This document shows, in pieces, positions 31,702-58,882 of a DNA stretch of 64,000 bases. Below the pieces are notes generated by a model. That model searched no databases and was not told the origin of the DNA. It saw only the letters and a program-made list of their open reading frames with translations. A program made the position numbers and the translations under genes. Origin of the DNA: Streptomyces californicus (GTDB taxonomy: Bacteria > Actinomycetota > Actinomycetes > Streptomycetales > Streptomycetaceae); assembly GCF_000717645.1 (NCBI RefSeq), contig NZ_JNZZ01000005.1, positions 225,987-289,986 on the forward strand. Direction: 5' to 3'. Each line of letters starts with the position of its first letter. Position 1 is the stretch's first letter.

Positions 31702-31740
31702 TCTCAAAGCTGTCTCGAACCGGCCTGGACCGGTCTCCGG
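31702..31740 (-). promoter_or_regulatory. SARP-type operator A (ketosynthase operon)
   Basis: On the plus strand TCTCAAA (31702), TCTCGAA (31713) and CCTGGAC (31724) stand exactly 11 bp apart, followed by TCTCCGG (31734). It is about 50 bp upstream of the TcmI-like start. Confidence 0.65.
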
Positions 31741-31745
31741 CGGCC

Positions 31746-33623
31746 TCAGAGCCGCAGGTCGACCCGGTAGTCGGTGAGCCAGGTGTCGAGCTGGAGCGCC
31801 ATCTCCATGCCGGCCCGCTCGACCCACGCGAAGGCGCCCTGCGGGGAGCCGTCGGCGGCCACCGCCTCGGCGGTGGCGGTGGTGTCGAGCAACCCGGCCA
31901 CGGCCGCGTCCCGGTCGGCGGCCAGCTCGGCGAACCGTTGGCGCACGAAGTCGCCGTAGGCCGCCTCCTGGGTGGTGGGGTAGGCGCTCTTCCGGCGGTG
32001 CAGGACCTCGTCGGGCAGCAGGTCGGCGACGGCGGAGCGCAGCAGGCTCTTCTCGACGCCGTCCACCCGCTTCATGGCGGCCGGCACGTTGTAGACGTAC
32101 TCGACGAGCGCCCGGTCGCAGAAGGGCGGCCGGAGCTGGACGCCGTGCGCCATGCTCATGCGGTCGGCGCGGTCCAGGTGGGTGGGGGCCCAGCGGGTCA
32201 GCGCGAGATAGGTGACCTCGCGAGCCCGGCGTTCGGCCGCGGTGTCCCCGTCGATGTGCGGGACCTCGGTGAGGGCGTCCCGGTAGTGCTGGTCCGCGTA
32301 GCCCAGGAAGTCCAGCCGCTTGCGCAGTTCGCGGTCGATCATCGAGGTGCCGAGCCCGCCGGCCGCGGCGTCGTGGCCGCGCTCGAAGGAGACCCAGGGG
32401 AAGGTCTGCGAGTTGCTGTGCTTCGGGTCGTACGCCCAGAAGTAGCCGTTGAAGACCTCGTCTGCGGTCTCGCCGGAGAGCACGGCCGCGAACCCCTCCT
32501 CGCGCAGCCGGGCGAAGAACCGCAGGAGGGAGACGTCCATGTCGCCGAGCGGCGAGGGGGCGTCCTGGCTGCGCAGGGCGGCGGTGTGCACCCCGGGGTC
32601 CGTGAGGGCGGCCGTGTCCAGCAGGAACTCGGTGTGCCGGGAGCCGATGTGCCGCGAGGCGAGGGCCGCGAACGGGGCGTCGGGCGTCGAGCGCATCGTG
32701 GGGTGGGGCTCGAAGTTCTCGGTGTACCCCGTGAAGTTGACCGAGAAGGTGCGCAGCGGGCCGGAGCCGGCGGCGGTGAGGTCGCGGTGGGCGAGGGCGC
32801 TCAGGGCGCTGGAGTCGATGCCGCCGGAGAGCATGGCGCCCACCGGGGCGTCGGCGCGCGTGTGGGAGGCGACGGCGTCCGCGAGCAGGCCGCGCACGGT
32901 GGCGACGGTCGTGTCGAGGCTGTCGGTGTGCTCCCGCGCGGGCAGCGACCAGTACCGCTGCTCCCGGCTGCCGGGGCGGCGGACGATCAGGGCGTGACCG
33001 GGGACGACCTCGCGCATCCCCCGGAAGACGCCGGTGCCGGGCTTGCGGCTGTGCGCGAACAGCTCGCGCAGCCCGTCGGCGTCGACGACCGCGTCGACGT
33101 CCGGGTGGGCCAGGATCGCCTTGGGCTCGGACCCGAACAGGACCCCGGTGGGCGTCGGGTAATAGCTCAGCGGCTTGACGCCGAGGCGGTCGCGGGCCAG
33201 CAGCAGCTCCTGGCGGCGTACGTCCCACACCGCGATCGCGAACAGGCCCTCCAGGCGGGTGAGGAAGTCCGCCCCCCACTCCAGATAGGCGTGCAGGGCG
33301 GTCTCGCCGTCGCCCCGGCCGGTGAACCGGTGGCCCTTCGCGGCCAGTCGGGCCCGCAGCTCGGTGTGGTTGGTCAGCGCTCCGTCGAGCGTGAGGACGG
33401 CGACGGCGGCGCCCCCCTCGGTGGTGTGGACGGCCGGCTGCGCGCCGGTCTCCGTCAGGTCGAGCAGGGCCAGGCGCCGGTGCGCGAGGGCGGCGTGCCC
33501 CTCCGCCCAGACGCCCCGGCCGTCCGGGCCGCGGTGGGCCAGGGCGGCCGCCATGGTCTCGACGGTCGCGGCCTGCGGGGACAGGTCCCGCTCGAAGTCG
33601 ACCCAGCCGGCGATTGCGCTCAT
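31746..33623 (-). CDS. Asparagine-synthetase-like amide-forming enzyme without the glutaminase Cys
   Basis: 625 residues, two domains. The N-terminal Ntn glutaminase-type domain begins MSAIAGWVDFERDL, where functional enzymes begin MCG; the nucleophile Cys2 is Ser. HRGPDGRG remains, but the usual NGEIYNH appears as DGALTNH. The C-terminal synthetase domain is intact, with the PP-loop SGGIDSS (266-272). It probably activates a carboxylate as adenylate and couples it to ammonia or an amine without hydrolysing glutamine. Homologues make amides in tetracycline, pradimicin and xanthone pathways. ATG overlaps the upstream stop (ATGA). Confidence 0.88.
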   Translation of the reverse strand: MSAIAGWVDFERDLSPQAATVETMAAALAHRGPDGRGVWAEGHAALAHRRLALLDLTETGAQPAVHTTEGGAAVAVLTLDGALTNHTELRARLAAKGHRFTGRGDGETALHAYLEWGADFLTRLEGLFAIAVWDVRRQELLLARDRLGVKPLSYYPTPTGVLFGSEPKAILAHPDVDAVVDADGLRELFAHSRKPGTGVFRGMREVVPGHALIVRRPGSREQRYWSLPAREHTDSLDTTVATVRGLLADAVASHTRADAPVGAMLSGGIDSSALSALAHRDLTAAGSGPLRTFSVNFTGYTENFEPHPTMRSTPDAPFAALASRHIGSRHTEFLLDTAALTDPGVHTAALRSQDAPSPLGDMDVSLLRFFARLREEGFAAVLSGETADEVFNGYFWAYDPKHSNSQTFPWVSFERGHDAAAGGLGTSMIDRELRKRLDFLGYADQHYRDALTEVPHIDGDTAAERRAREVTYLALTRWAPTHLDRADRMSMAHGVQLRPPFCDRALVEYVYNVPAAMKRVDGVEKSLLRSAVADLLPDEVLHRRKSAYPTTQEAAYGDFVRQRFAELAADRDAAVAGLLDTTATAEAVAADGSPQGAFAWVERAGMEMALQLDTWLTDYRVDLRL

Positions 33624-34177
33624 CGGGAGGTCCTCTCGTTCGTGACGGATGCGGTCAGGAGGTCCACGGCCACCAGGGCGAGCGGGATGCCGGTGACGGC
33701 GGCCCGGAAGTCGGCCGGGGTGGGCGTGGCGGCGGCGTCCACGGTGATGCCCAGGCGGCGCTGGGCGGCCTCGGGGCCGTAGCGCTCGTAGAGCTCGTGG
33801 TAGCCGCGGGCGGTCCGCTCCCCGTCGGTGACCAGCGTGAAGCGGACGGGGGAGCGGTTGCCGCGCCAGGTGATCTCGCCGGGCGCCCCGCCGGCGAAGT
33901 TGTGCCGCCAGGGGCTGCCGGTGGCGACGAACAGCCCGCCCCCGACGCGGTGCAGACCCGCCGGGACGGTGTGCGCCGCGCCGCTGCGCCGGCCGGTGAA
34001 GTGCAGCAGGGCCAGGTGCTCGGAGACCGGGCCGGGCTCCGGGCCGGTCAGCAGGGCGACCATGCGGGCGTTCGCGGCGGCCCGTTCCGCGACGGGCGGG
34101 AGGACCCGGGAGATGACCGGGAGACCCGTTCCGGCGTCGGCGCTCCTTCCGGTGCCGCCGCCCGTTCCGGTGCTCAT
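33620..34177 (-). CDS. Deazaflavin-dependent nitroreductase/quinone-reductase family protein
   Basis: 185 residues with the split-barrel DDN-like pattern: LLHFTGRRSGAAHTVPAGLHRVGGGLFVATG, then SPWRHNFAGG and ITWRGNRSPVRFTLV. The family uses F420H2 to reduce quinones or other small molecules; F420 use here is inferred from family. It may act on a polyketide quinone. It is coupled by ATGA overlaps to DUF1772 upstream and the asparagine-synthetase-like gene downstream, so the three form a cassette. Confidence 0.75.
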   Translation of the reverse strand: MSTGTGGGTGRSADAGTGLPVISRVLPPVAERAAANARMVALLTGPEPGPVSEHLALLHFTGRRSGAAHTVPAGLHRVGGGLFVATGSPWRHNFAGGAPGEITWRGNRSPVRFTLVTDGERTARGYHELYERYGPEAAQRRLGITVDAAATPTPADFRAAVTGIPLALVAVDLLTASVTNERTSR

Positions 34178-34626
34178 GACAGCACCACCGCGGCGGCGGT
34201 CAGGGAGCAGCCGGCGACGGCGAAGCAGGTGCGCAGCAGATGCCAGTCCCGCCACTGGCCGCGCGGGTCCTCCCAGCCGGGCCCGAGCTCGTCGGGCCGC
34301 GTCTTCTTGACCCGGTTGTTTATGGGCACGTTGCGGGTCTGCGAGACGACGGCGACCCCGGTCATGGCCAGGGCGGCGGCGATGAACAGCACTCGCGGCC
34401 CGGTCGCGTCCGCCCGCACGGCGAAGGCCGCGTCGATGACGACGGAGCCGCTCACGATGAACGGCATGATGCGGTCGTACCGCTTGCCGAGCAGCTTGTG
34501 CGTGTCGACGTAGCGCTCCGGCTCCATCGCGATCAGGGCGGGCATGACGCTGACCGCCACGGCGAACAGCACCCCCGCCACCAGGCCGGTGCCCAACAGC
34601 ACCAGCACACTCAGGGTTTCCACCAT
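34174..34626 (-). CDS. DUF1772 (anthrone oxygenase family) membrane protein
   Basis: 150 residues with about four membrane helices: LSVLVLLGTGLVAGVLFAVAVSV, MPFIVSGSVVIDAAFAV, VLFIAAALAMTGVAVV and a C-terminal helix. The conserved NVPINNRV motif is typical of DUF1772. Some family members are described as anthrone oxygenases, which would suit an aromatic polyketide, but the assignment is weak. ATG 34626 has GGGAGGAA upstream. It is the first gene of its operon. Confidence 0.75.
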   Translation of the reverse strand: MVETLSVLVLLGTGLVAGVLFAVAVSVMPALIAMEPERYVDTHKLLGKRYDRIMPFIVSGSVVIDAAFAVRADATGPRVLFIAAALAMTGVAVVSQTRNVPINNRVKKTRPDELGPGWEDPRGQWRDWHLLRTCFAVAGCSLTAAAVVLS

Positions 34627-34940
34627 GTCCCCGGTTCCTCCCGTCCAGCGGCGTTCAGCGGCGCTCCGAAGGTGGCAGCCGCGCCTCGCGCGCCGCTCGA
34701 AGCGGTCTGGACGGGGCGGCCAGCACGCCGGGGCCCGCCGCCGGAGGCCGTACGGGACCGGCGGCGGGCGCGTCCGCAGCCCGAGCGGTCCTCTAGCCGC
34801 CGCGTGTTCGCTGGCGGGGAGTGCCCGAGCCGCGCCGGAACGACAAGGGCGCACCCGGACGCGACGGCGTCGCGTCACCGCCGCACCCGGCACGGACCGG
34901 CACCGCGTCACAACCGCATCGAGACAAGGGAGCGCATCCG
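34627..34940. other. Divergent promoter region of the ketosynthase operon and FAD hydroxylase 1
   Basis: A 314-bp stretch with no credible gene. It contains SARP-type operator B at 34684-34712 and otherwise GC-rich sequence. It separates the DUF1772-led operon (minus) from the FAD hydroxylase (plus). Confidence 0.6.
34684..34712. promoter_or_regulatory. SARP-type operator B
   Basis: CCTCGCG (34684), GCTCGAA (34695) and TCTGGAC (34706) are 11 bp apart. The last two with their spacer match operator A as CTCGAA-N-CGG-N-CTGGAC. It may serve both divergent units. Confidence 0.65.
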
Positions 34941-36530
34941 GTGGCGGAGCGAACCGACGTACTGATCGTGGGCGGCAGCATGGTGGGCCTCGCCCAGGCC
35001 CTGTTCCTCGCCCAGCAGGGCATCCGGTCGATCCTGGTGGAGCGCCATACGCACATCTCGGCGCACCCCCGGGCCCAGGCGGCCAGCCCCCGCACGATGG
35101 AGCTGATGCGCGCGCTGGGGCTGGAGCAGAAGGTGCGCGCGCGGGAGAACCCGCACGCGCAGTACGGCGACATCCTCCAGGTGGAGTCGCTGACGGGCCG
35201 TGAACTGGGCCGGTTCGACGGGCCGTTCCGGCACGACCCGAACGAGGTGAGCACGACCGGCTGGACCCTGATCGGCCAGGACCGGTTCGAGCCCGTGCTG
35301 CGCGCCAAGGCCGAGGAGCTGGGCGCGGACATCCGGTTCGCCACCGAGATGGTGTCCTACGAGCAGGACGCCGACGGGGTCACCGCGGTGCTGCGGGACG
35401 TGCGCGGGGGAGAGGAGACCGAGGTCGAGGCCGCGTACCTGGTCGCGGCGGACGGCTTCCGCAGCACCGTCCGCGACGGACTGGGGATCGGCACCCACGG
35501 ACAGGGCGTCTTCGGCCGCCAGATGAACGTCATCTTCCACGCCGCGCTCGACCCGTACGTGGCGGAGCGCCGGTTCTTCCTCTGCTTCGTCAGCAACGAC
35601 CGGGTCAAGGGCGTCCTCGGCCGGCTCGACGACGGGGACCGCTGGGTGCTGGCTCCGAGCCTGCCGCCCGAGGAGACGCACGCCGCGTACTCCGAGGAGG
35701 ACTGCGTCGCCATGGTGCGCGCCGCGGTGGGCGTACCGGATCTGGACGTGGCCGTGGAGTCCAGCACGAGTTGGGAGGTGGCGGCCCGGATCGCCGACGG
35801 GTTCCGCTCGGGACGGGTCTTCCTGGCCGGTGACGCGGCCCATGTGATGCCGCCCACCGGGGGGTTCGGCGGCAACATGGGGGTGCAGGACGCGCACAAC
35901 CTGGCGTGGAAGCTGGCGGCGGTCCTGCGGGGGCAGGCGGACCCCGCCCTGCTGGACACCTACGAGGAGGAGCGCGTCCCGGTCGCGGAGTTCACCGTGG
36001 AGCAGGGCGTCATCCGCTACCTGCAGCGCAGCGGTCTGGACGAGGAGGTCGCGGCCCGCCACCGGCCGGAGACCACGGTGCTGTTCGGCCACGTCTACCG
36101 CTCGGCCGGGGTGCTGGCGGAGTCCGGCGGCGAGGACGGCCCCCCGGTGGAGGACCCGACCCAGCCGTCCGGCCGCCCCGGCGCCCGCGCGCCCCACGTC
36201 GAGCTGCGCGTCGGCGGTGTGGACACCCCGCTGCACGACCTGCTCAGGGGCGGCTGGTGGCTGCTGGCCGGCCCGGACGCCGGGCTGTGGGAGCGGGCGG
36301 CCGCCCAGGTGTCCCGGCTCACCGGCCTCGTGGTCGACTTCCACCGGGTGGGCGGTGAGGAGCCGGTCGAGACGGTCGAGGGCTTCCTGAAGAAGTACGG
36401 CATCACGACCGGCGGCGCGGTCCTGGTCCGCCCGGACGGGTTCGTCGCCTGGCGCGCGGCCGGGCAGCCGGCGGACCCGGCGGTCGAACTCTCGGCGGTC
36501 GTCCACCGGTTGCTGGGGCGCCCGGCCTGA
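34941..36530 (+). CDS. FAD-dependent aromatic hydroxylase 1 (class A)
   Basis: 529 residues of the PHBH/UbiH-like polyketide hydroxylase family. The FAD dinucleotide motif is VLIVGGSMVGLAQALFLA, followed by VAADGFRSTVRD and GDAAHVMPPTGGFGGNMGVQDAHNLAWKL. The C-terminal thioredoxin-like domain found in RdmE/PgaE-type enzymes is present. It probably hydroxylates or oxidatively rearranges the aromatic intermediate with NAD(P)H and O2. GTG 34941 has AAGGGA upstream. It is one of only two cluster genes on the plus strand. Confidence 0.92.
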   Translation: MAERTDVLIVGGSMVGLAQALFLAQQGIRSILVERHTHISAHPRAQAASPRTMELMRALGLEQKVRARENPHAQYGDILQVESLTGRELGRFDGPFRHDPNEVSTTGWTLIGQDRFEPVLRAKAEELGADIRFATEMVSYEQDADGVTAVLRDVRGGEETEVEAAYLVAADGFRSTVRDGLGIGTHGQGVFGRQMNVIFHAALDPYVAERRFFLCFVSNDRVKGVLGRLDDGDRWVLAPSLPPEETHAAYSEEDCVAMVRAAVGVPDLDVAVESSTSWEVAARIADGFRSGRVFLAGDAAHVMPPTGGFGGNMGVQDAHNLAWKLAAVLRGQADPALLDTYEEERVPVAEFTVEQGVIRYLQRSGLDEEVAARHRPETTVLFGHVYRSAGVLAESGGEDGPPVEDPTQPSGRPGARAPHVELRVGGVDTPLHDLLRGGWWLLAGPDAGLWERAAAQVSRLTGLVVDFHRVGGEEPVETVEGFLKKYGITTGGAVLVRPDGFVAWRAAGQPADPAVELSAVVHRLLGRPA

Positions 36531-36687
36531 GACGGCGGCACCGGGGGAGCGGCGGGGCCGTCGGGGGCGGCCCCGCCGACGTGTTCGCGTCGGCTCCGGC
36601 GGTCGGAGGGACCGCCGCCGCCCCGTCGCCCGCGCCGCCGCCCTCCGTCCGAGGGCCGGCCCGCCGCCCTGTTCGCCCGCACGCAGA

Positions 36688-36725
36688 ACCGGCGCGCCTC
36701 CCCGATCCGGGGGAGGCGCGCCGGT
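36688..36725. terminator. Bidirectional terminator between FAD hydroxylases 1 and 2
   Basis: ACCGGCGCGCCTCCCC pairs perfectly with GGGGAGGCGCGCCGGT around a six-base loop, between the convergent genes. Confidence 0.88.
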
Positions 36726-36747
36726 CGCGTGTGCGGCGTGCTCCGGG

Positions 36748-38352
36748 TCAGTCCAGCGCGAGGATCCGCCGCAGGACGCCCGTCACCGTCGCCGCGACAT
36801 CGCCCTCGGGGGCGCTCCCGGCGCGCCACGCGACCACCCCGTCCGGGCGGACCAGGACCGCGCCGCCGTCCGCGACGCCGTAGCGCTCCGTGAACGTGCC
36901 CTCGGTGTCGGCGTAGTCGCCGCCCGCGCCGACGCCGCGCACCTGGAGGACCAGGCCCAGCTCCCGGCCCGCGTCGGCCGCAGCCGCCCAGGGAGCGGAC
37001 GCGCCCGCGGTGAGCAGGGTGAAGCCGACGGGGAAGAGGTCCACTGCGGAGAACGGCCCGTGCGCGCCCTCGATCACGACGTGCGGGGCCCGTGCGCCGG
37101 GGCGGCCGCTCGGCTTGTCGGGCTCCTCGGTGATGTTCCCGGCCCCGGCGCCCTCTCCGGTGAACGCGCCGGCCGGATAGACGTAGCCGAAGGTCATCGT
37201 CATCTCGTCGACCAGGTCCTTGGCGACGTCCTGGAACTGCTTGCCCTCGCGGACCGCGAACCGCAGCATCGCCTGCCGGACGGTCTCCTCCGCGACCGGG
37301 CGGCGTTCCGCGTCGTAGCTCGCGAGCAGCTCGGGCCCGGCCTTGTCCGCCAGCACGAGGGCGAGCTTCCAGGCCAGGTTGTAGGCGTCCTGGATGCCGG
37401 TGCTGGCGCCGAAGGCCCCGGTGGGCGGCATCACGTGCGCGGCGTCCCCGGCCACCAGGAAGCGGCCGCGGGCGAAGGTGTCCGCCACCCGCGCCGAGAT
37501 GTCCCAGGCGGGCATGTCGACCGAGTCGAGGGTCAGCTCCAGATCCGGTACGCCGACGGCGGCGCGGACCAGTTCGACGCAGCGCTCCGGGGTGAAGTCC
37601 TCGGCGCTCTGGCCCTTGTCGGGGAAGAAGGAGACGTTGATGACCCACTTGCGGTCGTTGTCGAGCGGGATGATCGTGCCGCGCACCTCGGGGTTGTTGA
37701 CGTAGGCGGCGATGATCTTCCGGCCGCGCAGCGGCTCCTCCAGGTCGGCGTCGAAGAAGAAGCTGACCAGGTTGGTGAGGGTGCCGCGGCCGTGGGAGCC
37801 GATGGAGAGGAGGTCGCGGACCGGGCTGCGGCTGCCGTCCGCGGCGATCACGTACGCGGCGCGCAGTTCGGTGCTCTCGCCGGTCCCGACGTCGGTGAGG
37901 GTCGCGGTGACGCCGTCGGCGGTCTCGGTGACGGCGTCCAGCCGGGTGTGGAAGCGCAGGTCGACGCCGACCTCCTCGGCCCGCGCGCGCAGGATGGGTT
38001 CGAGCTGGTTCTGGTCGATCAGGGTCCACCGGGCCGGGCTGATGCGGCTGATGTCCTCGACGGAGGCGTTGGGCATGCGGACCCGCTCGGCGCCGGCGAG
38101 GGTCTCGACGTGCACCAGGTCGGTGTTGCCGGAGATCGGCGAACGGCCGGCCGTGACGCGCTCCTCCATGCCCACCGCGCGGTAGAGCTCCATGGTGCGC
38201 GGGTTGATGGCCCGCGCCTTGGGGTGGGTGGAGGTGCCGGGGTGGCGCTCGACGAGCGTGGCCCGCACCCCGTGGTGGGCGAGGAACACGGCGGCGGACA
38301 GCCCGGTCAGGCCACCGCCGACGATGAGGACGGGCACGTTCTCCTGGCTCAT
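36748..38352 (-). CDS. FAD-dependent aromatic hydroxylase 2 (class A)
   Basis: 534 residues. The FAD motif is LIVGGGLTGLSAAVFLAHHG, with ERHPGTSTHPKARAINPRTMELYR, AADGSRSPVRDL and GDAAHVMPPTGAFGASTGIQDAYNLAWKL. A C-terminal thioredoxin-like domain ends VLVRPDGVVAWRAG. It is the same family as the other three but clearly divergent, so each probably oxidises a different position. ATG 38352 has AAGGAA upstream; a start at 38400 would overlap the methyltransferase stop (ATGA). It probably forms an operon with that gene. Confidence 0.92.
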   Translation of the reverse strand: MSQENVPVLIVGGGLTGLSAAVFLAHHGVRATLVERHPGTSTHPKARAINPRTMELYRAVGMEERVTAGRSPISGNTDLVHVETLAGAERVRMPNASVEDISRISPARWTLIDQNQLEPILRARAEEVGVDLRFHTRLDAVTETADGVTATLTDVGTGESTELRAAYVIAADGSRSPVRDLLSIGSHGRGTLTNLVSFFFDADLEEPLRGRKIIAAYVNNPEVRGTIIPLDNDRKWVINVSFFPDKGQSAEDFTPERCVELVRAAVGVPDLELTLDSVDMPAWDISARVADTFARGRFLVAGDAAHVMPPTGAFGASTGIQDAYNLAWKLALVLADKAGPELLASYDAERRPVAEETVRQAMLRFAVREGKQFQDVAKDLVDEMTMTFGYVYPAGAFTGEGAGAGNITEEPDKPSGRPGARAPHVVIEGAHGPFSAVDLFPVGFTLLTAGASAPWAAAADAGRELGLVLQVRGVGAGGDYADTEGTFTERYGVADGGAVLVRPDGVVAWRAGSAPEGDVAATVTGVLRRILALD

Positions 38353-38396
38353 GCTGCTTCCTTGGGTGGTCGGGGCGGGCGGCTGCGTCCGGGCGG

Positions 38397-39428
38397 TCAT
38401 CGGACGGCGGTGACCAGCGTGTGCGTGCCCAGCAGCGGCTGCGCGGTGCTGTCGGCGAATCCGGCCCCGGCGAGCCAGGTGCGCAGGTCGCCGACGCGGT
38501 ACTCGGAACCGTCCTGGCTGACCAGGCGCATGTGCAGGCTGGAGAGCAGCCGTTCGGGATCGCGGCGCTCGTCGTCGATCATCCGGTCGTAGACGAGCAC
38601 CCGGCCGCCGGGGTTGACCGCGGCGAAGACGCGGTTCAGCAGTTCGCGGCGGCGGTCGGTGTCGAAGCCGTGCAGGATGTGGCCGAGCACGATGACGTCG
38701 GCCTTCGGGATGTCGTCGGTGAAGAAGTCGCCGCCGGTGAACGCGACGCGGCCGTCGAGCCCGAGGCGGGTGGTGTGCTCGGTGAAGAGCGGGCGGGTGC
38801 GCTCCAGGTCGAAGACCCCGGCCGCGAGGTGCGGGTGCTCCTTGACCAGGACGGCGGCGAGGTTGCCGCGCGCGCCGCCGAGGTCGGTGAAGGAGGCGTG
38901 GCGGCTCCAGTCGACGGCGCGCGCGATCTCGACGCCCATGCGGTCGCTGTAGGCGTCGAGGCCCGCGAAGAACCGCTTCATCTTCTCCGGGTCCTTGTGC
39001 CGGTCGCCGACGAAGCCGCCCTTGTCGGGGTCGAGGTGCTGCGGGGCCCCGGTGGTGAGCGCCTCGGTCAGCCGCCCCCAGGTGCCGTACAGGGTCTCGT
39101 TGGTCAGCTCGACGAAGCCGCCCAGATACGTGGCGGTGCCCGGCACGAGGTACGCCTCGGCCAGCGGGCTGTTGCCGTACCGGTCCCCCGTGCGCTCCAG
39201 CAGGCCCAGGCCGGCCAGCGCGTCGAGGAAGTCGGGGGCCATGCGTTCGTGCAGGCCGGTCGCGGCGGCGACGTGGTCCGCGTCGGCCGGGCCGTCGGCG
39301 AGGGCGCCGAACACCCCGAGCGCCACCGCGCTGTGCAGCACCTTTGCCGCGCAGTCCGCGATGGTCAGCTTGATCAGCGGACCGGGGTCGACCGCCGCGG
39401 CCGTCGTACGGTCATCGGTCGTTGTCAC
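38397..39428 (-). CDS. SAM-dependent O-methyltransferase
   Basis: 343 residues. An N-terminal winged-helix dimerisation domain (ALGVFGALADGPADADHVAAATGL) is followed by a class I methyltransferase fold with SFTDLGGARGNLAAVL (motif I, GGARG instead of GGGxG) and GHILHGFDTDRRRELLNRV (ArsR/OMT family 2 pattern). It is the only methyltransferase in the cluster portion seen and probably O-methylates a phenol. GTG 39428 has TAGGAGG upstream; a SARP-type array lies about 65-90 bp upstream. Confidence 0.9.
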   Translation of the reverse strand: MTTTDDRTTAAAVDPGPLIKLTIADCAAKVLHSAVALGVFGALADGPADADHVAAATGLHERMAPDFLDALAGLGLLERTGDRYGNSPLAEAYLVPGTATYLGGFVELTNETLYGTWGRLTEALTTGAPQHLDPDKGGFVGDRHKDPEKMKRFFAGLDAYSDRMGVEIARAVDWSRHASFTDLGGARGNLAAVLVKEHPHLAAGVFDLERTRPLFTEHTTRLGLDGRVAFTGGDFFTDDIPKADVIVLGHILHGFDTDRRRELLNRVFAAVNPGGRVLVYDRMIDDERRDPERLLSSLHMRLVSQDGSEYRVGDLRTWLAGAGFADSTAQPLLGTHTLVTAVR

Positions 39429-39491
39429 GCGAGCCTCCTAGCGAGCCGTCAGGGGACCGCTTCGGGTCCTCCCCTGACGATGGACGGTGCG

Positions 39492-39520
39492 CGTGGAGTC
39501 CCGCTCGAAGTGCTCTGCAG
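39492..39520 (-). promoter_or_regulatory. SARP-type operator C (methyltransferase unit)
   Basis: CGTGGAG (39492), GCTCGAA (39503) and TCTGCAG (39514) are 11 bp apart, and nearly identical in order to operator E. Confidence 0.65.
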
Positions 39521-39555
39521 CCCCCGCGACGCCCGCCCCGGGCCCCGGACATGGA

Positions 39556-39597
39556 GAAGTGCCGCCCCGGCCGCGCGGAGCGGTGGGGCGGCACTTC
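39556..39597 (-). terminator. Terminator of the EmrB-type MFS gene
   Basis: GAAGTGCCGCCCC (39556-39568) pairs perfectly with GGGGCGGCACTTC (39585-39597). It lies 33 bp past the MFS stop. Confidence 0.8.
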
Positions 39598-39629
39598 GGC
39601 CGTGAGTCACATGCGGGGGATGTATGTGA

Positions 39630-41219
39630 TCAGGCCGTCTCGGGGGTGCCGTCGGCGGCGGCCGGCGCCGGGCTCTCGGCCGGCTCGTCGGCGCCGTGGT
39701 GGCGGGAGCGGAGCGTGAGGTTCTTCATGAGCAGGGTGAGGACCAGGCCCACCGCGAGGATCGGCACGGCGGTGGTGAACACCGGGGTGAGCGAGGCCGC
39801 GTACGCGTCCTCGACGGCGCCGCGCACCGGGTCCGCGAGGGTGGCGAGGACGGTGTCCGAGGAGAGCGAGTTGCGGTCGATGCCGTCGAGGGCGCCGTCC
39901 GGCACCCGGGCTGCGAGTTCGTCGGTGAGCCGTCCGTAGAAGACGGCCGCGAAGAGCGAGATGCCGATCGAGGTGCCGAAGGAGCGGCCGAAGGTCACGG
40001 TGCCGGAGACGGCGCCCATGTCCTGCGGGGGCGCGGTGTTCTGGGCCGCCTGCGTGAACACCTGGGCCGAGAGGCCCGAGGCGAAGCCGAAGACCACCAT
40101 GTAGAGGATGGTGAGCACGCGCGGGGTGTCCGAGTCCATGGTGGACAGCAGGAGGGCTCCGACGATGCCGAGCGCCATGCTCAGGATCGGGAAGATCTTG
40201 TACGTGCCGGTCTTCATGATGATCCGGCTCGACCCCACGGAGGAGAGCACGAGGCCCATCATCATCGGCAGCAGGATGAAGCCGGAGGCGGTGGGGCTGG
40301 CGCCGGTGGCGACCTGGACGTACAGGGCGAGGAACTGGACCGCGCCGACGAAGACGATGCCGCAGATGGTGGTGCCGAGCAGCGAGATGGTGAAGGTGGA
40401 GTCCCGGAAGAGGCGCAGCGGGACGATCGGCTCCGAGGCGGTCGACTCGGCCTTCACGAACAGTCCGAGGAAGACCAGGGTGCCGAGGCCGAGCCCGATG
40501 ATCTGCGGGGAGGTCCAGGCGTACTCGACGCCGCCCCAGGACGTGAGCAGGGTGAGGGCGATGATGGCCGCGGAGAGCGTCACGATGCCCGCGTAGTCGA
40601 GCTTGGCGCCCGCGGCGGCCTTCCGGGGCAGGTGCAGGTACTTGACCAGCAGGGCGACGATCACGGCGCCGACGGGGAGGTTGACCAGGAAGACCCAGTG
40701 CCAGCTGAGCGCGTCGGTGAGCAGACCGCCCACGGCCGGGCCGGCCAGGGAGGCGCCGGCGAAGACCATGCCGAACATGCCGTAGTACTTGGCGCCCTCG
40801 CGCGGGGTGAACAGCTCGCCGATGATCGCGAGGACGGAGACGAACAGCCCTCCGGCGCCCAGCCCCTGCACGATGCGGAAGACGATGAGCTGCTCCATGC
40901 TGCCGGCGGCGCCCGCGAGCGCGGAGCCGAGCAGGAACAGACCCATGGCCGAGAGGTAGGTGACCTTGCGGCCGAAGAGGTCGCCGAGCTTGCCGTAGAT
41001 CGGCGTGGTGACGCTGGAGGCGATGACGTAGGCGATGGTCACCCAGGCGAAGAGGTCGATGCCGCCGAGGTCGCCCGCGATGCGGGGCAGGGCGGTGGAG
41101 ACGATCTGCAGGTCGAGGATGGCCACGAACGCGGAGAGCATGCAGGCGACCATGACCGGGGTGGTCCTGGTGCCGGAGGGGTGCGGGCCCCCGGGGGCCG
41201 GGGGAGTGGGAGCGGACAT
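39630..41219 (-). CDS. EmrB/QacA family MFS drug exporter
   Basis: 529 residues with 14 predicted membrane segments. The DHA2 motifs are LDLQIVSTALPRIAGDLGG near the start and GKLGDLFGRKVTYLSAMGLF (motif A). It probably exports the cluster product and gives self-resistance. ATG 41219 has AAAGGCGG upstream. The quinone oxidoreductase gene with a MarR operator is upstream on the same strand, so transcription may be substrate-induced. Confidence 0.92.
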   Translation of the reverse strand: MSAPTPPAPGGPHPSGTRTTPVMVACMLSAFVAILDLQIVSTALPRIAGDLGGIDLFAWVTIAYVIASSVTTPIYGKLGDLFGRKVTYLSAMGLFLLGSALAGAAGSMEQLIVFRIVQGLGAGGLFVSVLAIIGELFTPREGAKYYGMFGMVFAGASLAGPAVGGLLTDALSWHWVFLVNLPVGAVIVALLVKYLHLPRKAAAGAKLDYAGIVTLSAAIIALTLLTSWGGVEYAWTSPQIIGLGLGTLVFLGLFVKAESTASEPIVPLRLFRDSTFTISLLGTTICGIVFVGAVQFLALYVQVATGASPTASGFILLPMMMGLVLSSVGSSRIIMKTGTYKIFPILSMALGIVGALLLSTMDSDTPRVLTILYMVVFGFASGLSAQVFTQAAQNTAPPQDMGAVSGTVTFGRSFGTSIGISLFAAVFYGRLTDELAARVPDGALDGIDRNSLSSDTVLATLADPVRGAVEDAYAASLTPVFTTAVPILAVGLVLTLLMKNLTLRSRHHGADEPAESPAPAAADGTPETA

Positions 41220-44183: not shown

Positions 44184-44287
44184 GGCGGTTCCTCCGGGGG
44201 ATGGGGGTGGGGACGGGGTGGTGCGGGGACGGGGTGGGCCCGTCCGAAGGGAAAAAATTATGTGCTTGATAACATGCAAGAGATTGT

Positions 44288-46525: not shown

Positions 46526-46575
46526 AAAGAACCCCTCTCGCGGTTGGTCGCTCTCCGCGGATCGTGGCAGCGGCC

Positions 46576-46604
46576 GGTGGACCGGAACTCGAACCTCCCT
46601 CGGG
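46576..46604 (-). promoter_or_regulatory. SARP-type operator D (FAD hydroxylase 4)
   Basis: GGTGGAC (46576), ACTCGAA (46587) and CCTCGGG (46598) are 11 bp apart. Confidence 0.55.
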
Positions 46605-47612: not shown

Positions 47613-47633
47613 GAACGCATCGTCGGGGCGGCA

Positions 47634-47651
47634 ACTTGAGGAACCGTCAAG
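47634..47651 (-). promoter_or_regulatory. SARP-type operator H (GNAT gene)
   Basis: ACTTGAG (47634) and CGTCAAG (47645) are 11 bp apart, the same pair as at 58854 before the first SARP gene. Confidence 0.5.
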
Positions 47652-51958: not shown

Positions 51959-52033
51959 GGTGGGTCTCTCCTGACGTGGGTCCGAGGTGGGTCCGGTACG
52001 CGGGGTGGTGCGGTGAGTACGGTTCCGTCCCGT

Positions 52034-52062
52034 GCTGGAGGCGCGCTCGAACGGGCCTGCAG
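52034..52062 (-). promoter_or_regulatory. SARP-type operator E (P450/BBE unit)
   Basis: GCTGGAG (52034), GCTCGAA (52045) and CCTGCAG (52056) are 11 bp apart, about 75-105 bp upstream of the first gene. Confidence 0.65.
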
Positions 52063-52511: not shown

Positions 52512-52527
52512 CGTCTCCGCCGCCCCC

Positions 52528-54093: not shown

Positions 54094-54359
54094 GCGATCT
54101 CCTTCGGGTCCAGAAGCCGGCGTGCCAGGTCCTGTTCGGCCGCGCTGAGCGGAACGTCGGGGCGCAGTCGTTCGGGATGGCCCGGCGGAGGCCGGAGCAG
54201 CACCGGGGGCTCTGCCCGGTCGTCGAGCGGCGGGATGTGGACCCACAGGGCGCCGGCGGCGGCCAGCGCCCGGCCGGTCCACCGCAGGGACGCGGCGGTG
54301 ACGGACCAGAAGCCCACGTGCGTCTCCGTAACCGAGGGCCTGGTCGTCTGCACGGTCAC
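54090..54359 (-). CDS. Small protein of unknown function upstream of the carboxylase
   Basis: 89 residues that I cannot assign. It begins MTVQTTRPSVTETHVGFWSV, has a short hydrophobic stretch (RALAAAGALWVHIPPL) and ends with a charged helix (SAAEQDLARRLLDPKEIA). GTG 54359 has GAGGAGG upstream and its stop overlaps the carboxylase GTG (GTGA), so it is made in step with that subunit. A SARP-type array lies about 50-80 bp upstream, making it first in the carboxylase unit. Confidence 0.75.
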   Translation of the reverse strand: MTVQTTRPSVTETHVGFWSVTAASLRWTGRALAAAGALWVHIPPLDDRAEPPVLLRPPPGHPERLRPDVPLSAAEQDLARRLLDPKEIA

Positions 54360-54409
54360 GAGCGGCCCTCCTCGATGTGACGTTCGGACGGTTCACGCTC
54401 ACACGGAGG

Positions 54410-54438
54410 GCTCAAGACCCCTTGGAGACGGCCTCAAG
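54410..54438 (-). promoter_or_regulatory. SARP-type operator F (carboxylase unit)
   Basis: GCTCAAG (54410), CTTGGAG (54421) and CCTCAAG (54432) are 11 bp apart. The last overlaps the PPTase stop. Confidence 0.65.
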
Positions 54439-55237
54439 GGCGGTCGGAAGAAGGCCGGAGCGGGGCCGCGGGAGCGCCGTCGTGGCGGGCCACGCCGACG
54501 AGGTACCGGCCCAGCGCCCGGTGGGCGCCGAAGGTCCACGCACGCGGGCCCGCCGGCCCGCCGCCGGGGGAGAGCAGGCCCTCGTCGCCGTACGCGGTGG
54601 CCTCCCCCTCGACGGCCCAGGGCACGCCGAACCGGGCGAAGGGCAGCCGGAGCCCGCACCCCAGCGCCTTGGTGTACGCCTCCTTGAGCGTCCAGAGGCG
54701 GAGCAGCGCGGCCGTCACACCGGCCGCCCCGCCGATGCCTTCGAGGGTTTTGACGGCGGCCCGCTCGTCCGGTGTGCAGGCGCGGGCGAGCAGGACGTCC
54801 ACCGACAGGGAGCGGGTGAGGGGTTCGGCGTCCACCCCGATCCGCCCGGTGCGGCTGAGACCCGCCACGACGAGTTCACCGGTGTGGGCGAGGCTCACGT
54901 CCACACCGCGTACGCCGCGCAGATACGGGCGTCCGCCGGGCCGGTAGGCGAGGTCCAGCTCCGCCGGGTCGGTCTCCAGGGCCGCCGCCGCGGCGTGCTT
55001 CAGGACGAACCGCGCGGCGGCGAACCGGTGCCGCACGGTGGCGTCCGCGGTACGCCGGTAGCGCGGCCAGTCGTCGCCGAGCAGGCCGCGCAGCCGGGGG
55101 TCGGTGACGACGGCGGGCAGCCACTCCCCCCAGGTGGCCAGGACGACGACGCCGCCGGACTCCTCCCACTGCCGGTGGAGCTGGTTCCAGGGCCCGTCGG
55201 GGCCGCCCACGTGCACGGGCGGCGCGAGGCGCGGCAT
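54434..55237 (-). CDS. Sfp-type 4'-phosphopantetheinyl transferase
   Basis: 267 residues from ATG 55237. The family motifs are RIGVDAEPLT (Mg-binding) and LWTLKEAYTKALG, in the C-terminal half of a two-lobed Sfp/Gsp-type protein. It would convert the apo-ACP of this cluster to the holo form with coenzyme A. ATG 55237 has GGAGG eight bases upstream; an in-frame GTG at 55285 adds 16 Pro/Arg-rich residues and has a weaker site. It follows the aromatase gene closely. Confidence 0.9.
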   Translation of the reverse strand: MPRLAPPVHVGGPDGPWNQLHRQWEESGGVVVLATWGEWLPAVVTDPRLRGLLGDDWPRYRRTADATVRHRFAAARFVLKHAAAAALETDPAELDLAYRPGGRPYLRGVRGVDVSLAHTGELVVAGLSRTGRIGVDAEPLTRSLSVDVLLARACTPDERAAVKTLEGIGGAAGVTAALLRLWTLKEAYTKALGCGLRLPFARFGVPWAVEGEATAYGDEGLLSPGGGPAGPRAWTFGAHRALGRYLVGVARHDGAPAAPLRPSSDRP

Positions 55238-55298
55238 GCCGGTGGCCTCCGGCCGGGGCGGCGGAAGGTCGGCGAAGGGGCGCACGGGCGTCCGCCGT

Positions 55299-56306
55299 TC
55301 AGGGCTTCGGCGTGATCACGCGCACGGCGCTCTGCGCGTACCGCCGGGCAAGACCCAGCACGACGGCGCTGTCCCGGCCGAGCGCCCGCCCCACCTCCGG
55401 GCCCGCGCCCCCGCCCGACGCCGTACGCGGGTCCGTGTCCGGCGCCGTGCCCGACGCCGTACGCGGTTCCGTGTCCGACGACCCGTCCGGGCAGCGCAGT
55501 ACGGCCTGGTGGCGGCCGCGGAGGGTCACACCGCTCGCGTCGGGCTCGACCGACCACTCCCCGGCCTGGGCGACGGTCGACGCGGGCGGTTCGACGAGCT
55601 TGTAGACGATCCGGCCGCCGTGGGGGAAGCACACGCGCACGCCCCTGGCGGTGTGCGTACGGCCGTCGTCCGCCAGCAGGTCCATCCGGACCTGCTGGAT
55701 TCCGGGGGTCTCCTCCACGAGGTCGAGGCGGGTCAGCCGGGGGAGCTGCGCGGGCCAGTTCTCGATCCGGTACAGGAAGTCGTAGGCGAGTTCGGCCGGC
55801 CCGTCGACGCGCAGGGTCTCCTCGACGGCCACGATGTGCTCGTCCAGGGTGGCCCAGCGTTCCGCCAGGTGCTTCAGATCCGCCAACAGGGCCAGTAGAT
55901 CGTCGTGTTCGGCCCGTTCGAGCCAGCTCGCGGGGGTGGTGCGCGTCGCGGACGCCGGCAGCGCGGAGCGCAGGGTGAGGCGCGAGGAGCCTTCGGGAAG
56001 CTCCTCGACCACCCAGGAGCCGGTCACCCCCGGCTCGGACGGTCCGGGGACCTCCTGGCGGAAGTCGATCCGCCGCGCGGCCGGGTCGAGTGTGCGCCGG
56101 GTCACCCACGAGGTGACGTCGTCGCAGGCCAGCGCCCAGATCCGCAGGCGCTGGTCGGCGCCCTCCAGGTCCAGCGCCTCCACATGCACGGTCGGGGTGA
56201 GGAACAGCGGCCAGCGCACCGCGTCCGCGACCAGTCCGTAGACGACCCCGGCGGGCGCGGCGATGTCCACACGGTGGGACGTGTGGTGGAAGGCCGTCTC
56301 GGGCAT
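55299..56306 (-). CDS. Didomain aromatase/cyclase
   Basis: 335 residues in two SRPBCC domains. Domain 1 (about 1-150) starts TSHRVDIAAPAGVVYGLVADAVRWPLF; domain 2 (about 155-330) starts ETLRVDGPAELAYDFLYRIENW. This matches didomain ARO/CYCs that aromatise the first ring of type II polyketides, usually of reduced chains. An in-frame 36-bp tandem duplication (EPRTASGTAPDT-like) lengthens a loop in the second domain. ATG 56306 has AAAGGAA upstream. Confidence 0.93.
   Translation of the reverse strand: MPETAFHHTSHRVDIAAPAGVVYGLVADAVRWPLFLTPTVHVEALDLEGADQRLRIWALACDDVTSWVTRRTLDPAARRIDFRQEVPGPSEPGVTGSWVVEELPEGSSRLTLRSALPASATRTTPASWLERAEHDDLLALLADLKHLAERWATLDEHIVAVEETLRVDGPAELAYDFLYRIENWPAQLPRLTRLDLVEETPGIQQVRMDLLADDGRTHTARGVRVCFPHGGRIVYKLVEPPASTVAQAGEWSVEPDASGVTLRGRHQAVLRCPDGSSDTEPRTASGTAPDTDPRTASGGGAGPEVGRALGRDSAVVLGLARRYAQSAVRVITPKP
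55414..55477. repeat. 36-bp in-frame tandem duplication in the aromatase/cyclase gene
   Basis: Copies at 55414-55441 and 55450-55477 (period 36 bp) differ at one of 28 positions. They encode repeated (D/E)PRTASG segments. Confidence 0.88.
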
Positions 56307-56426
56307 CGGTGTTCGTTCCTTTCTTCGGCACACGCGACCGACCGTCGGCCCGACCGCTCGTGAAACGGTGGACCGACGGTGGAGAACGGATCACCTCGGT
56401 GTGCGGCGGGGCGGCGCCCCGGACGG

Positions 56427-56453
56427 GGACCGGGCCCGCCGGGCCCGGTCCCG
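56427..56453 (-). terminator. Hairpin after the ACP gene
   Basis: GGGACCGGGCCC pairs perfectly with GGGCCCGGTCCC around GCC, 12 bp past the ACP stop. It may partly terminate before the aromatase gene. Confidence 0.65.
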
Positions 56454-56464
56454 ACCGCCCCCGA

Positions 56465-56725
56465 TCAGGCGGTGGCCTGCGGAGACAGCACCCGGTTGAC
56501 GGCCGCGATGTACTGCCTCGGGGTCTCCGCCTCCTCCAGCACCTGCTCGTCGAGCGCGACCCCCGCATCGCGCTCGATGACGCCGGTGACCTGGAGGAGG
56601 CACAGGGAGTCGTAGCCGAGGTCGGCGAACGCGACGTCCAGCACGTCCCCGTTCAGGTCGTGGGTGTCGCTGCCCCCGCTGGTCCGCAGGAGGCCGATCA
56701 GGGTGGGAAGGTCGAGCTGCTGCAT
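56465..56725 (-). CDS. Acyl carrier protein of the type II PKS
   Basis: 86 residues. The phosphopantetheine site is Ser40 in ADLGYDSLCLLQV, with acidic helices typical of a polyketide ACP. It carries malonyl units and the growing chain for KS-alpha/KS-beta, which lie 26 kb away rather than beside it, an unusual split of the minimal PKS. The nearby PPTase and thioesterase can load and clear it. ATG 56725 has AGAGAGG upstream. Confidence 0.95.
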   Translation of the reverse strand: MQQLDLPTLIGLLRTSGGSDTHDLNGDVLDVAFADLGYDSLCLLQVTGVIERDAGVALDEQVLEEAETPRQYIAAVNRVLSPQATA

Positions 56726-56860
56726 GATGGTGCCTCTCTTCTTCTCGTGTACTCGTGTCGTGTCGTGACAGGTGTGACGGGGACGCCGGCCCCGGAGGCG
56801 CGCGGCGGTCTCGAAGGCGTGCCGGCGGTCGGGCGGCGCGCTCAGGGATGTCCGGAGGTC

Positions 56861-57670
56861 TCAGGGATGTACGGCGGGCTCACGGGTGTACGGCGGGACC
56901 GTCTCCGCCGGCCGCCGCCCGTTCCCGGTCCCGGCTTCGAGCCGCCGCACGACGCGGCAGGCCCGGCCGATCAGCCGGGGAAGCGCCTCACCGCGTACGA
57001 AGAAGTGGTCGCCGGGCACGGTACGGGCCGCCACCGGCCCGGAGGTCCACCGGCGCCAGCCGCCGACCGTCGCGGGCGACACCAGCGGGTCACGGCTTCC
57101 GGACACCGCGAGCAGCGGGACGGACAGCGGTCCGCGCTCCGGCGCCGACGCGCGGGCGGCGGCGCGGAGCGCGCCGGCCAGCCGCAGATCGTCGCGGAGC
57201 ACGGGCAGTGAGGCCCGCCGCCAGTACCCCCGTGCCTCAACGCTCTCGGGCAGGGCCCCCAGCCGGTCCAGCGCCTCCACCAGCTCCTCGTCGGAGCTCT
57301 CGCAGGCGTCGGAGAGCCTGCTGGCCGCGTCCGGGGGCGGGCAGGCCCCCACGGCGACGAACGACGGAAGCGGCAGCCCCTCCTCGCGCAGCGCCCCGGC
57401 GAGGGCGTGGGCCACCATCGCCCCGAGGCTGTGCCCGTACAGCGCGTAGGACTGTCCGGCCGGGACGCGGACGCGGTCCAGCAGATGCGCGACCAGGGAG
57501 TCGCGGTCGGTCAGGCGCGGCTCGCGCCGCCGCCCGCCACGGCCCGGCAGCAGCACGGGCACGGGCTCGACGCCCTCACCCGTGCTCCGGGCCCACCGGT
57601 GGAACACCGAGTCCCCCGCCCCCGCGTGGGCGAAGCAGTACAGCCGAACCGCTGGTTCCGTGCCCGCCAT
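56861..57670 (-). CDS. Type II thioesterase
   Basis: 269 residues, alpha/beta hydrolase. Ser81 is in LYGHSLGAM, the aspartate is in VSGSRDPLVS and the histidine in VPGDHFFVRG. It starts AVRLYCFAHAGAGDSVFHRW, the typical TEII N-terminus. Such editing enzymes release misprimed or stalled acyl groups from carrier proteins. ATG 57670 has GAGGAGAG upstream. A long SARP-type repeat array lies 57-107 bp upstream. Confidence 0.93.
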   Translation of the reverse strand: MAGTEPAVRLYCFAHAGAGDSVFHRWARSTGEGVEPVPVLLPGRGGRRREPRLTDRDSLVAHLLDRVRVPAGQSYALYGHSLGAMVAHALAGALREEGLPLPSFVAVGACPPPDAASRLSDACESSDEELVEALDRLGALPESVEARGYWRRASLPVLRDDLRLAGALRAAARASAPERGPLSVPLLAVSGSRDPLVSPATVGGWRRWTSGPVAARTVPGDHFFVRGEALPRLIGRACRVVRRLEAGTGNGRRPAETVPPYTREPAVHP

Positions 57671-57726
57671 CTCTGCTCTCCTCGGCCCGTCGGAATCGCG
57701 TGTGCCCGTTCAGGCTCGCGGACGGC

Positions 57727-57777
57727 CCTGGAGACGGACTTGAGACCCGGCCGCCCCCCGCTCCAGACGGCGTGGAG
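57727..57777 (-). promoter_or_regulatory. SARP-type operator G (thioesterase unit)
   Basis: CCTGGAG (57727), ACTTGAG (57738), GCTCCAG (57760) and CGTGGAG (57771) all fall on one 11-bp lattice, with a degenerate copy at 57749. ACGG spacers recur between pairs. Confidence 0.65.
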
Positions 57778-57800
57778 CGCGGCGGTGCGTGCCGCCCGGG

Positions 57801-57890
57801 AGCCGCACGTTCACAGGACGTACGGATACGGGACGTACGGATACGGGACGCACGGATACGGGACGCACGTTCATGGCACGCACGGGCACC
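57801..57890. repeat. 15-bp tandem repeat downstream of SARP 1
   Basis: Six 15-bp units; GGACGTACGGATACG is perfect at 57816-57830 and 57831-57845, and the next unit differs by one base. Flanking units are decayed. The array ends 10 bp before the SARP 1 stop. Confidence 0.88.
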
Positions 57891-57900
57891 GAACGCGCGG

Positions 57901-58722
57901 TCACGCCGCGTACAGGTCGAACGTCGAGCCGCGCCGGGGCCCCGTGGCCAGGTCGAGCGCGGGGTCCACGGAGAGCATCGCCTGGTGCATGCGCTGCATC
58001 TGCGGCGAGGGCTCCACGCCCAGCTCCTCGATGAGCCGTACCCGCAGCTTGCGGTAGAGGTCCAGCGCCGCGGCCTGCCGGCCGGACCGGTACAGGGCCA
58101 CCATGGCCTGCGAGTGCAGCCCCTCGTGGTGCGGGTGGCGCGCCGTCAGGTCCCGCAGTTCGGCGCTGATCTCGCAGTGACGGCCCAGCCGCAGATCGGC
58201 GTCGATGCGCCGCTCCACCGTCACCAGCCTGCTCTCCTCCAGCCGGAGCACCTCGATGCTCAGCGCCGGGCCGCAGCGCACGTCGACCAGCGCGGGTCCC
58301 TGCCAGAGCGCCAGCGCCTCCCGCAGCGTGTCGGCGGCGCTCTCGTCGTCACCGGCCTCGAAGGCCGCCTGCCCCTCCCGCACCTTGCGCTCGTAGGCGT
58401 GCACGTCCGTGCTGTCCGCCGGGATCTGGAGCACGTACCCGCCGTGCCGCGTGGCGAGGACGTCCTTCGCGGTGTGCGGGGCCTCGGGCCCCATGGCGGT
58501 GCCGAGCCGGCGCCGCAGCTGGAGTATGTAGGTCTGGAGCGTGGTCAGCGCGCTGACGGGCGGGTTGGCGCCCCAGATCTCCTCCATCAGCGTCGGCACG
58601 GGCATGATCTGCCCCGGGTACAGCGCGAGCAGGGAAAGGACTTGGCGTGGCTTGCCCGCCGAGGGGACGACGGAGACACCATTGACGTCGGCATTCAGCG
58701 GTCCCAGAACCCGGATCCTCAT
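57901..58722 (-). CDS. SARP family regulator 1
   Basis: 273 residues. An OmpR-type winged helix (MRIRVLGPLNADVNG; RQVLSLLALYPGQIMPVPTLMEEIW) is followed by the bacterial transcriptional activation domain (TDVHAYERKVREGQAAFEAGD to SPQMQRMHQAML). SARPs bind direct heptamer repeats 11 bp apart and activate antibiotic clusters; nine such arrays lie in this cluster. ATG 58722 has GGGGAGAG upstream. A repeat pair at 58854 suggests regulation by itself or SARP 2. Confidence 0.95.
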   Translation of the reverse strand: MRIRVLGPLNADVNGVSVVPSAGKPRQVLSLLALYPGQIMPVPTLMEEIWGANPPVSALTTLQTYILQLRRRLGTAMGPEAPHTAKDVLATRHGGYVLQIPADSTDVHAYERKVREGQAAFEAGDDESAADTLREALALWQGPALVDVRCGPALSIEVLRLEESRLVTVERRIDADLRLGRHCEISAELRDLTARHPHHEGLHSQAMVALYRSGRQAAALDLYRKLRVRLIEELGVEPSPQMQRMHQAMLSVDPALDLATGPRRGSTFDLYAA

Positions 58723-58853
58723 GAACGTTCTCTCCCCAGACTCGTCGAGAGCTTCTCGAATCGTTCTCCGAAGCAGGACTTACGGACCTCTTTGTCCGCA
58801 TCTGCGTGTACGACCTCCAGCATCGTACTGACTGAAACAGGTCGCCCCGGATT

Positions 58854-58882
58854 CCTTGAGTCTGCGTCAAGCGGCTCTCCGT
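58854..58882 (-). promoter_or_regulatory. SARP-type operator I (SARP 1 promoter)
   Basis: CCTTGAG (58854) and CGTCAAG (58865) are 11 bp apart, with weaker TCTCCGT at 58876. They lie in the 229-bp gap before SARP 1. Confidence 0.5.

Follow-up and report, generated by a model that had tools for sequence, protein, structure and literature searches.

We analyzed a stretch of 64,000 nucleotides from Streptomyces californicus (hereafter the window; C5:225987-289986 of a 7.78-Mb genome in 104 contigs), in which a type II polyketide cluster spans approximately 24 to 60 kb and includes the genes of two regulators of the SARP family, SARP1 and SARP2. Nine arrays of heptamer direct repeats in an 11-bp phase precede genes of this cluster, and we are highly confident that they represent operators of the cluster SARP-family activators. 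Taken as a whole, the observations are best explained by such operators together with a cascade from SARP2 to SARP1, a combined picture that we consider likely; the cascade itself, which would run via a long-spaced array in front of the SARP1 gene, has about an even chance of being correct.

The original prediction had listed nine sites with 11-bp-phased heptamers, nearly all located just upstream of transcription units. All nine exist, with two or three repeats counted in each (no systematic search for a fourth was made). On the minus strand, which is that of the downstream genes, they share the heptamer core TNNA(G/C) at an 11-bp step, with one core base missed by some heptamers. Each array lies upstream of a minus-strand gene, the one at 54409-54437 overlapping the end of the preceding gene (54434-55285). 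The arrays, the candidate -10 elements and the two regulator genes are as follows:

31701..31729, minus strand: putative SARP array TCCAGGC, TCGAGAC, TTGAGAA, upstream of the TcmI-type cyclase gene (start 31654), then the minimal polyketide synthase (PKS) genes
31687..31692, minus strand: candidate -10 GAGGGT, 8 bp past the cyclase array
34683..34711, minus strand: putative SARP array TCCAG/TCGAG/GCGAG, upstream of the DUF1772/anthrone-oxygenase-like gene (start 34626)
34669..34674, minus strand: candidate -10 CACCTT, DUF1772-gene promoter
39491..39519, minus strand: putative SARP array TGCAG/TCGAG/TCCAC, upstream of the O-methyltransferase gene (start 39428)
39477..39482, minus strand: candidate -10 CATCGT, O-methyltransferase promoter
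46575..46603, minus strand: putative SARP array CCGAG/TCGAG/TCCAC, upstream of the FAD monooxygenase gene (start 46525)
46561..46566, minus strand: candidate -10 CACGAT, FAD monooxygenase promoter
47633..47650, minus strand: putative SARP array of two heptamers, TTGACGG and TCAAGTT, upstream of the GNAT gene (start 47612)
47619..47624, minus strand: candidate -10 GACGAT, GNAT promoter
52033..52061, minus strand: putative SARP array TGCAG/TCGAG/TCCAG, upstream of a hypothetical gene (start 51958)
52019..52024, minus strand: candidate -10 AACCGT, promoter of hypothetical gene 51958
54409..54437, minus strand: putative SARP array TTGAG/TCCAA/TTGAG, upstream of the DUF6059-type gene (name from the related plasmid cluster L081) and the acyl-CoA carboxylase beta gene
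54395..54400, minus strand: candidate -10 GAGCGT, promoter of the DUF6059-type gene
57726..57743, minus strand: putative SARP array of two heptamers, TCAAGTC and TCCAGGG, upstream of the thioesterase gene (start 57670)
57712..57717, minus strand: candidate -10 GAGCCT, thioesterase promoter
58853..58881, minus strand: long-spaced array CGGAGAG, TTGACGC, TCAAGGA, in front of the SARP1 gene
58822..58827, minus strand: candidate -10 TACGAT of the SARP1 gene, 25 bp past the array
57901..58722, minus strand: SARP1 gene, BTAD and Trans_reg_C, 273 aa
58952..59773, minus strand: SARP2 gene, BTAD, with Trans_reg_C under the curated cut-off, 273 aa

At eight of the nine arrays, a predicted -10 of the form NANNNT begins exactly 8 bp past the last heptamer. 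The probability of A and T at eight of nine sites by chance is approximately 1e-13 for a fixed alignment and independent sites, with the heptamer that counts as the last being our choice. The anticipated distance of about 8 bp was therefore found at the predicted -10s of eight promoters, but not at that of SARP1 (58854). Core, phase and gap fit the published layout of SARP promoters, i.e. heptamer direct repeats in 11-bp phase with an 8-bp gap to the -10 (PMC10936776, PMC4393881; here and below, in the available parts of the papers cited). Together with the two SARP genes of the cluster and the recurrence of the arrays at orthologous promoters, this agrees with the SARP regulon originally proposed. 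Both cluster SARPs present the small-SARP architecture, an OmpR-type winged helix followed by BTAD and nothing further, and each matches four PDB sequences, AfsR among them. The winged helix of SARP2 scored 21.4 bits against a cut-off of 26.2, yet the alignment to EmbR and AfsR covers both domains.

With regard to enrichment, the strict triple of TNNAG occurs five times in the genome. Three of these matches lie in the cluster (one on the plus strand) and two outside it, at C5:141393 and C12:8653. The control, for which the triple pattern was read backwards, occurs eight times and hence more frequently than the strict triple, so that it is the clustering and not the genome total that counts. 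When one mismatch was allowed, nine matches at six places were found in the window (three places matched on both strands), while 100 shuffles of the window gave a mean of 1.31 and at most 5. We also employed a composite score of three heptamers plus the -10, whose weights were fixed after the sites had been seen, on the cluster (28.9 kb), the rest of the window (35.1 kb) and a background of 18 stretches from the same genome (360 kb). At a threshold of at least 16 bits there were seven matches in the cluster and none in either of the other two sets, and arrays at equal density elsewhere were thus not encountered in this search. At 15 bits the corresponding counts were 8, 0 and 1, and at 12 bits 11, 0 and 4; the model gives low values to two of the nine sites (11.6 at 58859 and 9.9 at 57732). 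The same spacing emerged from the best 80 of 140 SARP1-type loci (1.3 Mb), which were found by protein similarity and not by the array: 124 matches of at least 16 bits were obtained at spacing 11, vs. 3, 9, 4, 10, 0 and 3 at spacings 8, 9, 10, 12, 13 and 14, respectively. These 124 matches at the right -10 distance compare with 34-68 at 13 other distances, and at least one match was present in 55 of the 80 loci.

Conservation was assessed in nine relatives, namely the plasmids L081 and L082 and seven genomes from the best chain-length-factor matches; G052 (by its match a near copy of the L081 cluster) and G228 (a partial match) are not among them. L081 carries all nine arrays and L082 all seven covered by the stretch examined. 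The arrays of the cyclase, DUF1772, methyltransferase and hypothetical 51958 genes recur in all nine relatives, that of the DUF1772 gene at a lower score (13.8 bits) in six of them. GNAT promoter arrays were detected in eight of nine (none in G274), and the array of FAD monooxygenase 46525 in three, the closest ones. The thioesterase promoter, covered in two relatives only, scored 9.9 in L081 and 18.6 in G262, and the 54409-54437 array is retained in both relatives examined (L081 and L082). The P450 gene is preceded by an array in three relatives and by none in the window. A possible tenth array at approximately 56355-56383, upstream of the aromatase gene, was dropped as poorly conserved (14.1 in the window vs. 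8.2 in L081). Within promoters, pairwise identity was 0.93 at core bases vs. 0.61 elsewhere (225 pairs); this figure, like those on orientation given below, is descriptive, as the sequences are related and the score used to choose the sites includes the core bases, which inflates the 0.93. A tblastn search of 40 kb with SARP1 and SARP2 found a single SARP, 44-46% like SARP1, in each of G243, G292, G143, G186 and G092, and two SARPs (43% and 34%) in G274; the operators thus seem to have persisted while the type of regulator changed. The predicted -10 of the GNAT promoter ends 6 bases ahead of the ATG in the window and L081, and 7 in L082, and a leaderless message is predicted for this gene.

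The promoter of SARP1 follows a different layout, in which the array ends 25-26 bp before the -10. When 250 bp of upstream sequence were taken from each of the 80 SARP1-type genes, TNNAG pairs with an 11-bp step were present on the sense strand in 17 and on the other strand in 59, and sense pairs at 22 bp in 32, with no other spacing from 6 to 30 rising above 10 on either strand. Counted over distances from 5 to 60 bp, the step from the T of the last heptamer to TANNNT came out at 33 bp in 56 loci, at 32 in 6, at 44 in 3 and at no other value. In an alignment, 70 of 82 promoters fit the long-spaced layout, and bases outside the selection are conserved as well: a C before the middle heptamer (68/70), an A of a third heptamer (66/70) and a G after the last (60/70). 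TANNNT at 32-33 bp from the last T was found at 75 of 87 SARP1-type genes, at none of 54 SARP2-type genes and at none of 26 other SARP genes. Further, ten additional plasmid loci, independent of the definition of the rule, showed the long-spaced layout in nine cases, vs. 1 of 2376 background windows; these loci were taken from 40 listed of 148 plasmid records and are relatives, although none of them is identical in the last 150 upstream bases to a locus used earlier.

A heptamer profile built from the biosynthetic arrays scored those arrays better in forward direction in 53 of 56 held-out cases. On the SARP1-type arrays, the same profile scored better in reverse in 62 of 75 (two units) or 67 of 75 (three units), and the SARP1-type array is probably reversed relative to the biosynthetic ones. 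The window array itself is ambiguous in direction (two units, reverse 10.7 vs. forward 8.8; three units, forward 6.0 vs. reverse 4.4). An inverted-repeat operator (CTTGA-N7-TCAAG) was considered and found no support: mirror matches numbered 16/70 vs. 12.6 expected and direct ones 9 vs. 13.0, with half-site covariation favouring neither; a divergent 8-bp promoter on the opposite strand was found in 0 of 75. A number of SARP1-type promoters carry a second array farther upstream, e.g. TCCAG-N6-TACAA-N6-TCGAG in L012. In the available parts of the openly accessible literature, we recognized no report of a small-SARP gene preceded by an array that is reversed or long-spaced.

Which SARP would act at this array is suggested by the company that the SARP1-type gene keeps. 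The presence of a SARP2-type gene was established for 90 SARP1-type genes, either from their loci or, where the loci showed none, from whole genomes (L037, with the end of a SARP2-type gene at its contig edge, was scored as present). The long-spaced array occurs in 75 of the 90 promoters overall: in 75 of 85 where a SARP2-type gene was found, vs. none of the five from the four genomes where it was not detected (Fisher p 6.8e-5). In line with this pairing, a sample of 101 genomes contained 14 with a SARP1-type (at least 72% identity) and 14 with a SARP2-type gene (E 1e-85 or better), with both types in ten genomes vs. 1.9 expected by chance; three more of the 14 are G039, G024 and G087, whose SARP2 matches are partial and begin only at about residue 80. 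Of three SARP1-type loci from genomes without a detected SARP2-type gene, L072 and L074 hold 8-bp-type sites of at least 16 bits and L057 (8 kb) holds none, so the SARP1-type protein alone may serve such sites. The idea of a dispensable second SARP, drawn from loci without SARP2 within 10 kb, was dropped, as a SARP2-type gene was found elsewhere in 13 of 13 genomes tried. Of 148 plasmid records that gave a match, 142 are from Streptomyces, and 111 contain SARP1-type genes with at least 60% identity; this type of regulator therefore travels on plasmids.

Several observations count against this assignment. Ten SARP1-type genes accompanied by a SARP2-type gene gave no strict match; in four of them (L005, L009, L013 and L034) the array persists and the -10 is displaced by one base, another three (L053, L056 and L063) are second copies, and L054, L075 and L124 are unexplained. 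The failure to detect a SARP2-type gene in the four genomes, one of them split into about 700 contigs, might reflect a gap in the assembly. Moreover, the rows compared are related, and a quick, unfinished tree places the five genes at four or five positions, with L074 and L120 in one unresolved fork. The recognition helices are near-identical, LQTYILQLR in 62 of 87 SARP1-type and LQTYVLQLR in 44 of 54 SARP2-type proteins, and specificity is hence not readable from the helix; as read from the alignments, of the two AfsR residues in contact with bases, T88 is retained in both cluster SARPs and R92 is replaced by Q. In stretches from four sampled genomes with a SARP2-type but no close SARP1-type gene, sites of at least 16 bits were found in L126 and L129, a site of only 15.8 in L128 and none in L127. 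Lastly, that SARPs bind, which of them binds where, whether expression is raised or lowered and where transcripts begin are all deduced from sequence.

Other explanations were weighed against these data. Lone TNNAG pairs at 11 bp also occur within genes, e.g. at 41096, 43229 and 52911, as would suit chance or codon-driven repeats in GC-rich DNA, but 16-bit composite sites were absent from the 360-kb background and present at orthologous promoters of relatives, which leaves this account with hardly any credibility. The binder of the arrays might also be PhoP or AfsR, global regulators that use direct repeats at 11 bp, instead of a cluster SARP, given that AfsR belongs to the SARPs and has its afsS site in common with PhoP (PMC10972967), that the published afsS repeat CGTT(T/C)ATCGNN also contains the TNNA core, and that the genome holds ten BTAD matches above cut-off (not necessarily all SARPs; BTAD also matches in control genomes). 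We regard this as very improbable: the base after TNNA is T in the afsS repeat but G or C in the cluster arrays, and strong arrays are concentrated in this cluster and in SARP1-type loci. Scarcely better placed is the original suggestion of two heptamer sequences, one per SARP, with the GNAT and SARP1 promoters set apart from the rest. These two arrays are indeed alike in the window (TTGAC-N6-TCAAG), but this supposed second form, when read on the transcribed strand, has the same TNNA(G/C) core. Further, the GNAT array has the 8-bp geometry, the recognition helices of both SARP types are nearly identical, and the five relatives in which one SARP was found carry three ordinary heptamers at this promoter, TCGAG first and last, with the 8-bp gap. 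The SARP1 promoter is distinct, as had been surmised, by its spacing, probably by its direction, and by tracking SARP2-type presence, but not by heptamer form.

A stronger competitor, which we nonetheless consider unlikely, is that the SARP1 array is the autoregulatory site of SARP1 itself, as activator or as brake, and that SARP2 is not the binder. The layout goes with SARP1-type genes and was seen at none of the other SARP genes examined, its probable reversal could suit a brake, and in the rishirilide cluster RslR2 reduces transcription of its own gene (PMC7917814). However, the array is lacking in all five SARP1-type genes of genomes without a detected SARP2-type gene, and its direction is ambiguous in the window.

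The sequence directly shows the arrays, their spacing, the -10 alignment, how they are conserved and that the long-spaced array is associated with SARP2-type genes, and a mechanism of SARP operators plus a SARP2-to-SARP1 cascade may be outlined as follows. SARP2 would bind the SARP1 array, which, at 25-26 bp from the -10, would act from upstream of the polymerase, and SARP1 expression would be switched on. SARP1, perhaps with SARP2, would then bind the eight other arrays, where two or three SARP monomers would occupy TNNA(G/C) heptamers one helix turn apart. Sitting over a weak or missing -35, they would hold RNA polymerase at the NANNNT -10 located 8 bp downstream, thereby turning on the type II PKS and tailoring genes together. 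More tentatively, and with somewhat less than even confidence, we propose that the SARP1-type and SARP2-type pair constitutes a portable two-step switch of Streptomyces clusters, many of them on plasmids, in which SARP2 acts via a reversed far-upstream array (32-33 bp to the SARP1 -10), a layout distinct from the 8-bp one, and the biosynthetic promoters are in turn switched on by SARP1. For an uncharacterised type II PKS cluster, most of the regulon would be readable from sequence, with promoters and predicted start regions, and this reading suggests which regulator to express for waking the cluster. Likewise, the long-spaced array offers a testable wiring rule for paired SARPs across many Streptomyces clusters, and its geometry raises the matter of how one protein fold acts from two positions.

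The cluster encodes a ketosynthase pair, cyclases, a cupin, an asparagine-synthase-like protein, several FAD monooxygenases, a methyltransferase, a P450 with ferredoxin, a carboxylase, an acyl carrier protein (ACP), a thioesterase and a MarR regulator, in addition to the two SARPs. Close relatives of the whole cluster were found on Streptomyces plasmids, whereas the window end (64000 = C5:289986) coincides with the end of its contig (289,986 bases). In the single open reading frame at 27045-28253, a polyketide cyclase-like domain is joined to a short-chain reductase; the L082 annotation gives a shorter reductase and an ACP gene next to the chain-length factor, the window ACP being located instead at 56465-56725. 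L082, the relative in NBC_00190, also holds, at 31952-40101, the methionine/S-adenosylmethionine recycling genes ahcY, metF, metH and metK inside the cluster. The motif ACAATCNNNTGCATG occurs in the window only at 44287 and 42511 (minus strand), one copy beside the divergent MarR gene (44338) and the other upstream of a Zn-dehydrogenase gene (42425), with similar letters retained in L081 and, in part, also in L082; the motif is a possible MarR operator.

Among known systems, the OtcR regulon of the oxytetracycline cluster shares with the present one the cluster-wide 11-bp direct repeats, the last of them 8 bp before the -10, and a SARP activator (PMC4393881); it belongs to another cluster, and OtcR was tested with reporters in E. 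coli, whereas the operators described here are predicted from sequence. AfsR at the afsS promoter likewise involves a SARP domain, 11-bp direct repeats over the place of the -35 and a weak -10 (CACTGT), but its heptamer is another one and it is a large SARP and global regulator (PMC10936776). In position, the SARP1 array resembles the operator of PimR at the pimM promoter, where three heptamers lie upstream of, and not over, the -35, ahead of the gene of a second regulator (PMC5930380, PMC10972967), and for which class I activation has been proposed (PMC5930380). The upstream location fits, though no -35 motif is visible for reference in 63 aligned SARP1-type promoters. PimR is, however, a SARP-LAL with the heptamer CGGCAAG (PMC5930380), whereas the SARP1-type array is probably reversed and, in the majority of loci, keeps its T at 32-33 bp from the -10. 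With SARP2 as the most likely binder of the SARP1 array, the proposed cascade would resemble those of other SARP pairs, RslR3 to rslR2 (PMC7917814) and SrrY to srrZ (PMC7296167). RslR3 differs in being multi-domain, and the likeness of both cascades to the proposed one concerns the wiring, a SARP turning on the gene of another SARP.

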